Assembly: GCA_005805375.1 (NCBI GenBank)
Contig: SYMT01000216.1
Location: 1 to 44,433 of the forward strand
Length of the DNA stretch: 44,433 nt
Direction of reading: 5' to 3'
Source: Actinomycetota bacterium
GTDB taxonomy: Bacteria > Armatimonadota > SYMT01
Positions 21,547 through 25,961 of this stretch are shown piece by piece (position 1 is the first letter of the stretch; the number at the start of each line of letters is the position of its first letter). Below the pieces are notes generated by a model, which worked only from the letters and a program-made list of their open reading frames with translations, searched no databases and had not been told where the DNA came from. The translations under genes and the position numbers were made by a program.

Positions 21547-21726
21547 GGGAGACGGCAGGTACTGATACTCTGTTGACCTCGGAAAACGGGGCGCAGACAC
21601 GCGAAACTATAGGTGCTTCCGAGTGTCGGATCGGACATCCTGAACACGGAATCTTTTTTGTTCGCCCGAGACTTCGGTCTCGGCGAGCCGCGTCTTGCGG
21701 CCGCCGGCGGCGGACGGGAGTGGAGT

Positions 21727-24411
21727 ATGGCTTCCTCAGGGAGATGGTCCCGCGCGACGGTCCCGTGCCTTGTCGTGATGACGGCAGGGTTCGTCGCTGT
21801 TCCCGCCGACGCTGCCCCGAGCACGTGGCAAAAACCGATCCAGGTCGCCGCGGCAGGTATGCCTCCGGCGAAGTCGGCGCCTGCGGCCCGCCCGGCGCCC
21901 ATCACATCACTGTCGCTCACCCCGACGGCGATCGTACTCGACGGCCCCCGGTCCGTACATCGCATCCTGGTCACAGGCGTCCGCAAGGACGGCACCCAGG
22001 TGGATCTGACCGGTCAGGCGAAGTTCATCAGTTCGACGCCGAAGGTCGCACAGGTGAGTCCGTTCGGCGTCGCAACTCCGACCGGCAACGGCCAGGGCAA
22101 GATTCTGGTCACCGCCGGAGGGCGACGTGCCGCACTGGCTTTAACCGTCCGCAATGCGGACAAACCGGCTCCGTGGAACTTCTCGAACCATGTCATCTCC
22201 GTCCTGAGCAAGGGCGGGTGCAGCATGGGTGCGTGCCACGGGGCCGCAGCCGGCAAGAACGGCTTCCGTCTCACCCTGCGGGGTTATGATCCGGACCTGG
22301 ACTTTGAGCGCCTTCTGCGTGAGGGCGGCGCCCGCCGTCTGTCGAAGTCCGATCCGGGCAACAGCCTGGTGCTCCTCAAGGGCTCCCTCGCTGTGCCGCA
22401 CGCGGGCGGACAACGCTTCAAGACGGACAGCCTGGAGTACCAGGTCCTCTCCGAGTGGATGGCCGAGGGGATGGCCGGTCCCAGCGCCACCGACCCGACG
22501 CTGGTACGACTGGAAGTCGCGCCCGGTGAGCGGATCCTGGTGGAGAAGGCCGAACAGCAGCTCCTGGTGCGTGCCCACTTCAGCGACGGGCACGTGGAAG
22601 ATGTTACCCACTGGGCACGTTACGCTTCCAACGAGGAAGGCGTCGCCACGGTGGATGACACCGGCAAGGTGCGGATTCAGGGCAACGGCGAGACCGCGAT
22701 TACAGTGATGTACATCGACAAGGTGACCTTCGCTCGCGTATCAGTGCCGTTCCCGAACAAGGTGCTGCCCGCCCAGTATGCGAAGATCCCGGCCCCGAGC
22801 TACATTGACCGGTTGGTGCTGAAGAAGCTCGAAGCCCTTCGCTTGCTGCCGTCCGATGTGGCTGAAGACGCCGAGTACATGCGGCGCACCTATCTCGATC
22901 TCATCGGCACGCTGCCGACAGCAGCCGAAGTGCGCACCTTCCTGGGTGACCAGGATCCGACCAAGCGCGCCAAGCTGGTGGATCAGTTGCTCGAGCGGCC
23001 CGAGTACGTGGACTACTGGACGTACAAATGGGGCGACCTGCTCCGCGTGAACCGCGAAACCCTCACCGAGAAGGGCATGTGGGCCTTCTACAGTTGGGTG
23101 CGCGAGGCAGTTGCCGAAAATCGCCCGTGGGATCGGGTTGTGCATGACGTGCTGACCGCCAACGGGAATACCTTCTCGGATGGCCCCAGCAACTTCTACC
23201 GGATCAGCCGCACGCCGGAAGATCTCACCGAAACGGTGAGCCAGGCGTTCCTGGGAATCCGCGTGCAGTGCGCCCGTTGCCACAACCATCCGTTTGAGAA
23301 GTGGACCCAGCAGGACTATTACAAGTTCGCCAATCTCCTCTCGCGGGTGACCCGGAAGCCGGGCGAACATCCGCAGGATCTGGTCATCACTGCTGCCGCT
23401 ACCGGGGAGATCGCCTTCCCGAAGACCGGCAAGCCCCTGCCTCCCGCCCCGTACGACGGGAAGCCGATGGCCACGGACAGCGCGGAGGATCGCCGTGTCT
23501 ACCTGGCTGACTGGCTGGCCTCGCCGAAGAACAGCTACTTCGTGCAGTCCATCGTCAATCGCGTGTGGCGCCACTTCATGGGGCGCGGCTTGATTGAGCC
23601 GGTGGATGACCTCCGGGCCACGAACCCGGCCTCGAATGAGCCGTTGATGCAGGCGCTGTGTAAGGACCTGGTGGAGCACAACTTCGACCTGAAGCACCTC
23701 ATCCGCCAGATTGCGACCAGCCGCACCTATCAGCTCACTTCGCGGCCCCGGCCGGAAAACAAGAAGGACGACAAGCAGTACAGCCGGTACTTCGTGCGTC
23801 GTCTGACGGCCGAGCAGCTTCTGGATGCGATCTCGCAAGTTACCCAGCAGCAGGAGAAATTCTCCAATCTGCCTGCGGGTTACCGCGCCATCCAGTTGCC
23901 GGACACCAAGGTAGCGAACTACTTCCTGGACGTGTTCGGACGGCCGCCGCGGCAGATCACCTGCGATTGTGAGCGCGCGCAGGAGCCGAACATGGCTCAG
24001 GCGCTGCATCTCATCAACGGCGCCGGCGTCAACCAGAAAATCTCGGCGAATGGCGGCTTCGTGGATCAGCTCCTGAAGTCTCCGAAGAAAGACAACGAGA
24101 TCGTGGAGGAGATGTATCTCACCTGCTTTGGCCGCTTCCCGACCAAGTAGGAGATGGATGCCGCCCTCCAGACCGTGAAGGAAGCGATGGAGCCGCCGAA
24201 GCCGGCCGCAGCGAAGCCTGCGGACCCAAAAGCTGCTGCGGCTGACCCGAAGGCAGCGGACGCGAAGGCCGCGGACGCGAAGCCGGCGGACCCCAAGGCC
24301 GCCAAGCCGGCCGAGCCGCCGAAGTTCGATCCGGTCGTGGCCCGGCGCCAGGTCTTCGAAGATCTGCTCTGGGCGCTTATCAACGGAAAGGAGTTCGTGT
24401 TCAACCACTAG
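21727..24411 (+). pseudogene. secreted Ig-like (Big-2) / DUF1549 / DUF1553 protein with an in-frame amber codon near its C-terminus
   Basis: A signal peptide (residues 1-30) is followed by a Big-2-like Ig domain (about 58-142), a CSMGACHG heme-like motif (C165, C170, H171; CX4CH), a second Ig-like region, DUF1549 (YMRRTYLDLIGTLPTAAEV, then VQCARCHNHPFEKWTQQDYY with CxxCH) and DUF1553 (VNRVWRHFMGRGLIEPVDDL, then QALHLINGAGVN). The frame stops at TAG 24148-24150 after 807 residues, in YLTCFGRFPTK. The same frame continues at once with EMDAALQTVKEA, an Ala/Lys/Pro/Asp-rich linker and ALINGKEFVFNH, the conserved C-terminal end of DUF1553 proteins, to TAG 24409-24411. A single G-to-T change in a Glu codon would explain it. 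It is either a recent nonsense mutation, a read-through stop or a sequencing error. ATG 21727 has GGGAG upstream. Confidence 0.75.
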
Positions 24412-24533: not shown

Positions 24534-25961
24534 ATGAAAATGCGCTTCGTGACGATCAGCGCCGCCGTCGCTGCCGTGTTGCTCCTACCGGGGACGGCCC
24601 ACGCGCAAAATGTAAGCTTCAGTAAGGATCTGGTGCCGATCCTGCGGGAGCAGTGCGTGAAGTGCCACAGCACCCGGCAGCCATCCGGGGGCTTTGCGGT
24701 CTCCACGTTCGCCGCCATCGAAAAGGGCGGCAAGGGCGGCAAGGCACTGGCGCCCAAGCCGGATGACAGCCGGCTGATCAAGTACCTGGAGGGCACGCTC
24801 CAGCCGAAGATGCCGATCGGGGGCTCGCTCACCAAGGAACAAATTGCTAAGTTCCGCGCGTGGATTACCCAGGGCGGAAAGTCGGATGTGGACGTGGGGC
24901 TGGTGGTCATTCCGGACTCCGCCATTCCGGCCGTCAAGACGCCGGTGATCGCGGTGAAGGTGCCGGTGCTGCCGGAGGCGCTCGCGTTGGCGTGGAGCAA
25001 GGACAACAAGTTCCTGGCGATTGGGACGTACAAAACCGTCCTGATCGTGGACCCCTCCACAGGTCAGCGTATCGGTGAACTGAAGGGGCATGCCGACAAG
25101 ATCCACGATCTACAACTGAGCCCGGACGGTAAGATCCTCGCGGCGGCGGGCGGACCGCCCGCCCAACAGGGCGAGATCAAGCTCTGGGACACGACCACGT
25201 GGAAAGAGATCCGAACGATCGTCGGCCATACCGACTACATCTACAGCATCTCCTGGAGCCCGGACAACAAGCGGATCGCCACGGCCAGCTACGACAAGAC
25301 CATCAAGGTGTTCGACGCAACCACCGGGTCCGAAGTCAGCACCCTGAAGGACCATGCGGACGCGGTGTACGCTGTGGCGTTCGACCCCACCGGCAACCTG
25401 CTTGCCTCCGGCAGCGCAGATCGTTCGGTAAAGGTCTGGGATGTGAAAAGCGGAAAGCGTATTTACACGCTGGCGGGCCATACCGACACCGTGTACTCTC
25501 TGGCCTGGAACCCGAAAGGCAACCAGATCACCTCCGTGGGCGCAGACAAGACCGTGCGCACCTGGAACGTGAATCCCCAGAGCGGCAACCAGGCGCGCAA
25601 TGTGACGGCTCACGACAAGGCCGTTGAAGAAGTGGCCTATTCGCCGGACGGCAACGCGATGGCGACCGTGAGTGATGACAAGAGCGTGAAGATCTGGAAT
25701 GCCGCCAACGGGTCCACCACCCACCACATCAAGGACCTCGGCGACGGTCTTCAGTCGGTGGTCTTCAGCCCCGACAGCAAGCTGATCGCGATCGGTGGTT
25801 ACGACGGCACAGTGCGCATCATCAACGCAGCGGACGGCAAGACGGTGAGCACGATCATCGAGATGCCGAAGGCCGCGCCGGCGCCCGCCGCCAAGCCGCC
25901 GGCAGCAGTCCCGGCGAAGCCGACCCCGGCGAAAACGGACGCAAAGCCCCGTTCCCGCTAA
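24534..25961 (+). CDS. secreted c-type cytochrome domain protein with WD40 propeller
   Basis: A 475-residue exported protein. Signal peptide residues 1-24 (MKMRFVTISAAVAAVLLLPG, cleavage after AHA), then a single-heme cytochrome domain of the planctomycete type with CVKCH (C41, C44, H45) and the KMPIGGSLTKEQIAKFRAWI end motif. From about residue 140 a WD40 propeller follows, with repeats such as HADKIHDLQLSPDGKILAAA, HTDYIYSISWSPDNKRIATA, HADAVYAVAFDPTGNLLASG, HTDTVYSLAWNPKGNQITSV and KAVEEVAYSPDGNAMATV. The last 30 residues are Ala/Pro/Lys-rich. Such proteins are coded with DUF1501 and DUF1549/DUF1553 proteins; their biochemical role is unknown. ATG 24534 has GGAGAGA upstream. It probably forms a unit with the amber-interrupted gene and ends at a strong terminator. 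Confidence 0.88.
   Translation: MKMRFVTISAAVAAVLLLPGTAHAQNVSFSKDLVPILREQCVKCHSTRQPSGGFAVSTFAAIEKGGKGGKALAPKPDDSRLIKYLEGTLQPKMPIGGSLTKEQIAKFRAWITQGGKSDVDVGLVVIPDSAIPAVKTPVIAVKVPVLPEALALAWSKDNKFLAIGTYKTVLIVDPSTGQRIGELKGHADKIHDLQLSPDGKILAAAGGPPAQQGEIKLWDTTTWKEIRTIVGHTDYIYSISWSPDNKRIATASYDKTIKVFDATTGSEVSTLKDHADAVYAVAFDPTGNLLASGSADRSVKVWDVKSGKRIYTLAGHTDTVYSLAWNPKGNQITSVGADKTVRTWNVNPQSGNQARNVTAHDKAVEEVAYSPDGNAMATVSDDKSVKIWNAANGSTTHHIKDLGDGLQSVVFSPDSKLIAIGGYDGTVRIINAADGKTVSTIIEMPKAAPAPAAKPPAAVPAKPTPAKTDAKPRSR

Follow-up and report, generated by a model that had tools for sequence, protein, structure and literature searches.

Within the 44,433-nucleotide stretch of DNA analysed here (hereafter the window), a gene of the DUF1549/DUF1553 family is interrupted by an amber codon, beyond which the same frame runs on to an end with the look of that family. 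The locus therefore raises the question of whether UAG is read as an amino acid in this bacterium, whether the tail is produced by some other route, or whether the gene carries a nonsense mutation or an error in the assembled sequence. An earlier note on this DNA had put forward four readings, namely a very recent nonsense mutation, a base-call error, a read-through event and amber suppression, with possible recoding of UAG in the genome.

Reading of the sequence together with its open reading frames confirms that a TAG interrupts the gene and that, as the note had described, the same frame then stays unbroken for 86 codons, starting with EMDAALQTVKEA and ending with ALINGKEFVFNH, with the conserved end EDLLWALINGKEFVFNH leading straight into a second TAG (Table 1). 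The mechanically listed open reading frame opens at a GTG at position 21613, but the start is probably the ATG at 21727 since MAS-G is present in both orthologues. From this ATG, the read-through protein amounts to 894 codons, the TAG position counted. In the read-through translation, a PSCyt2/DUF1549 domain (Pfam PF07583, residues 398-579, 178 bits for a cut-off of 29.8) is followed by a PSD1/DUF1553 domain (PF07587, residues 627-853, 154 bits for a cut-off of 28.5), so that each domain scores above its Pfam cut-off. The PSD1 match extends past the stop, which is residue 846 of this translation, and the DLLWALxNxxEFxFNH-type C terminus is present in the gene only beyond the TAG. The window gene thus resembles DUF1549/DUF1553 proteins in domain order and in its C-terminal (E)DLLWALxNxxEFxFNH motif, and differs from them by its premature TAG and by a linker common only to the orthologue from the same family. 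By eye, its N terminus resembles a signal peptide. The gene downstream (24534-25961) encodes a WD40-repeat protein, and inspection by eye suggests that its N-terminal part (VPILREQCVKCHS) is cytochrome-c-like. In the relative, the orthologue is likewise followed by a gene that starts similarly, so this pair of DUF1553 and WD40-repeat genes may be conserved.

Table 1. Parts of the interrupted DUF1549/DUF1553 gene, in window coordinates
Feature	Position	Strand	Remarks
Main open part up to the premature stop	21727..24147	+	807 codons; PSCyt2/DUF1549 and most of PSD1/DUF1553
Premature amber codon TAG	24148..24150	+	CAG (Gln) at the aligned codon of the closest orthologue
Conserved in-frame C-terminal continuation	24151..24408	+	86 codons; last residues EFVFNH
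Possible re-initiation ORF	24154..24411	+	In-frame ATG 3 nt past the TAG; 85 aa; from the mechanical ORF listing
15-bp-period repeat, part of the Ala/Lys/Pro/Asp linker	24244..24302	+	Linker in this gene and the same-family orthologue only
Natural gene end, TAG	24409..24411	+	Directly after ...EFVFNH; the orthologue has FNH-TAA

As for the relatives, the closest orthologue that we found (record SYKE01000309.1) comes from a different genus within the same family. It shows 74% identity over residues 78-932 and has no stop. Where the window gene reads ...FPT-K-TAG-E-M-D..., this orthologue reads ...FPT-R-Q-E-L-D..., the TAG GAG ATG of the former corresponding in the latter to CAG GAG TTG, which contains neither a stop nor an ATG. 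The aligned codon is thus a glutamine codon and not the GAG that had been expected in relatives. The whole length of the tail can be aligned with the uninterrupted C terminus of the orthologue, at 76% identity over the 84 codons aligned and at 100% across the final 28, and the 86-codon frame is therefore not there by chance. The wider alignment of the C terminus has 31 other rows, which represent 30 distinct genes, two of them (L032, on G001:C297, and L061) being the same gene, the closest orthologue. None of these 30 homologues terminates at the TAG column, so the tail belongs to the protein; this also does away with the possibility that relatives normally end at FGRFPTK. All 30 run 36 to 84 residues past the column, to a conserved final helix, and every homologue examined has the kind of end that the earlier note had called typical of DUF1553 proteins. 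The column itself is variable (A, E, D, R, T, Q, G, P, V or S), so several residues are tolerated at the position of the stop. Across the phylum, 11 genomes yielded 18 strong matches, among which an internal stop is seen in the window gene only, and a search of viral contigs found no close relative of the gene. Within its own genome, the tail has no second copy, its sole further match being one of 51 bp at 80% to the conserved end, located on a different contig.

The low-complexity Ala/Lys/Pro/Asp linker that had been noticed in the tail is real and consists in part of the 15-bp-period repeat listed in Table 1. It comprises ~50 residues (24160-24320) between the last two C-terminal helices, and it is found only in the window gene and in the same-family orthologue, being absent from the other 29 homologues that we compared. 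There are 86 residues after the TAG column in the window gene and 84 in the orthologue, versus 36-46 in the other homologues.

Comparison of the window gene with the closest orthologue gives, for the tail, a dN of 0.18 and a dS of about 1.25, that is, a dN/dS of about 0.15, while values outside the tail are about 0.07-0.19. Over the last 28 codons, there are 0 non-synonymous changes over 65 sites and nine synonymous changes over 19 sites, and neither measure points to relaxed selection past the stop. On the assumption that the tail has been neutral ever since the stop appeared, the latter must be very young and occupies at most about 6-9% of the lineage's branch; with dS close to saturation and branches taken to be equally long, this figure is a rough bound. 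That the tail is intact means either that its translation ceased only very recently, or that it is still translated, or that the stop is a consensus error. The orthologues have an open frame at the position of the stop, as for a nonsense allele. We have not filed the gene as an established pseudogene, since selection past the stop is not relaxed, as a very young stop would lead one to expect. Published cases of in-frame stops in prokaryotic protein-coding genes are common to two or more species (Belinky et al. 2021, PMC7918605). Ours is similar in that a TAG faces a CAG in relatives, the downstream frame is intact and dN/dS is below 1. However, it is a singleton from one draft genome, the published set being better guarded against artefact, and our dN/dS compares the window gene with an other-genus relative lacking the stop, whereas stop-bearing sequences were compared in that study.

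The genetic code of the organism was assessed by family searches (DUF1553, sulfatase and ABC) and by checks on release factor 1 (RF1), tRNAs and PylS. The 7.5-Mb draft genome displays a very large DUF1553 expansion, with 78 distinct genes alongside about 45 sulfatase matches, and two of the DUF1553 genes lie within the window. An internal TAG occurs in one of these 78 distinct genes (97 matches), the window gene, and in none of the above-cut-off sulfatase or ABC-transporter matches of the genome. UAG is the terminator of five of the 22 DUF1553 genes with a scorable conserved end, of five further annotated window genes (HemN-like, xylose-isomerase-like, TrkA, sulfatase and the second DUF1553 gene) and of the interrupted gene itself, right after FNH. 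RF1, the product of prfA, is present (474 bits, against a curated cut-off of 423). None of the 29 typed tRNAs in this genome, which is about 80% complete, has a CUA anticodon; a tRNA-like stretch outside the ARAGORN calls (L100) has no CTA anticodon by eye; and PylS is below the cut-off, as in most control genomes. Other internal stops that turned up were rejected as support for recoding. A TAG in G001:C112 is outside the aligned protein region, a TGA on the genome's own contig C154 belongs to a frameshifted DUF1553 copy, and a TAG on C362 falls in a weak sulfatase match of 47 residues, below the cut-off.

The organism uses the standard genetic code, in which UAG is an ordinary stop, and genome-wide recoding of UAG, which had been suggested for this genome, is refuted by the lone TAG among 78 DUF1553 genes, the presence of RF1 and the lack of a CUA tRNA among those typed. 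More generally, the view that UAG is recoded as an amino acid, or is read by a dedicated amber suppressor tRNA or a pyrrolysine system, draws on the single in-frame TAG of the window gene and on nothing else. Set against 77 DUF1553 genes without an internal TAG, the use of UAG as a terminator, an RF1 above its cut-off and the tRNA and PylS results, it is extremely improbable, although a rare suppressor tRNA might, strictly speaking, sit in the ~20% of the genome that the assembly lacks.

With UAG an ordinary stop, the tail could still be made if the TAG were partly read by a near-cognate tRNA, or if ribosomes re-initiated at the ATG located 3 nt downstream, which would yield less of the tail, or the tail as an 85-aa chain of its own. 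Both routes are consistent with the intact frame and the constrained tail, and read-through also with the many residues tolerated at the site. Re-initiation gains from the closeness of the ATG, since E. coli gene pairs keep substantial re-initiation at +2 nt, where the loss was 5, 20 and 70% in three pairs (PMC10666635). Our locus is like such termination-reinitiation coupling of adjacent genes in having a start codon a few nucleotides from a stop, but here stop and start lie within one ancestral gene, the ATG at 24154 is not conserved, since the orthologue has TTG, and re-initiation is hypothetical. Moreover, an AGGAG sits directly against this ATG, with zero spacer, and the local RNA fold around the stop is ordinary (z = -0.87). 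A conserved stop and context, as expected of a programmed site, are absent, the orthologue carrying neither stop nor ATG there and the stop being known from one genome only. A young allele accounts for the constraint on the tail without any extra mechanism, and we consider it unlikely that either route operates. A more elaborate version, in which a persistent, real TAG gives 807-aa and 85-aa chains by termination-reinitiation at ATG 24154, or leaky amber read-through tunes the output of full-length protein, and in which the C-terminal helix docks either in trans or in cis, is in our judgment decidedly doubtful.

The main rival to a genuine nonsense change is an artefact of a fragmented assembly of metagenome type, whether a wrong consensus or base call or a mixture of strains, in which case the true gene would be uninterrupted. 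Such an error would yield an identical sequence, and it agrees with a tail that is without any decay, with an assembly of 727 contigs at 80% completeness and with the frameshift, in a conserved stretch, of another DUF1553 gene on contig C154 of the same assembly. The latter gene (L069, G000:C154:5500-8273, with the frameshift near 2363-2384) may be a pseudogene or an assembly error. Isolated errors are normally removed by consensus calling, and substitutions alone are not the commonest type of assembly error. The lesion in the window gene is precisely a lone substitution, with no indel or homopolymer nearby, and we hold an error to be possible, if somewhat unlikely.

We favor, as the probable explanation, that a bacterium with the standard code carries an isolated nonsense change of one base in a secreted-type DUF1549/DUF1553 gene that is otherwise intact. 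Most simply, one C-to-T transition would have converted CAG (Gln) to TAG, and RF1 would terminate translation there, releasing an 807-residue product. The 86 residues that this product would lack at its end comprise one helix from the C-terminal bundle, the linker and the final, conserved helix. The allele would be young, which would account for a tail that still looks selected, and it is perhaps a polymorphism in the sampled population. The codon itself, the intact relatives, the selection on the tail and the ordinary usage of UAG are shown by the data, whereas a genuine TAG base and a truncated product are inferred. The uninterrupted relatives, the selection on the tail up to very recent times and the isolated nature of the lesion support nonsense mutation and base error as a pair among the readings of the earlier note. 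Genome-wide recoding and a dedicated amber suppressor are not supported, and read-through, by chance or programmed, is possible though unlikely.

A structure model of moderate quality (mean pLDDT 69, eight sequences), which for this reason serves for helix positions only, places the stop at residue 457 of the modelled fragment, in the first turn of a helix spanning residues 456-469. The linker is predicted to be disordered (pLDDT 33-41), and the final helix, residues 518-534, is well predicted (pLDDT mostly 71-92). Loss of the conserved end would probably harm folding. The stop is near the 3' end, and read-through or re-initiation could still compensate for it.

The finding is an ordinary one, of a published kind, and by itself it is of little importance. 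What it means for annotators is that the C terminus encoded by 24151-24408 is part of the interrupted DUF1553 gene, and that a lone in-frame TAG before a conserved tail should not be taken for recoding before a check of the codons that end genes, of release factor 1, of the tRNAs and of paralogues.
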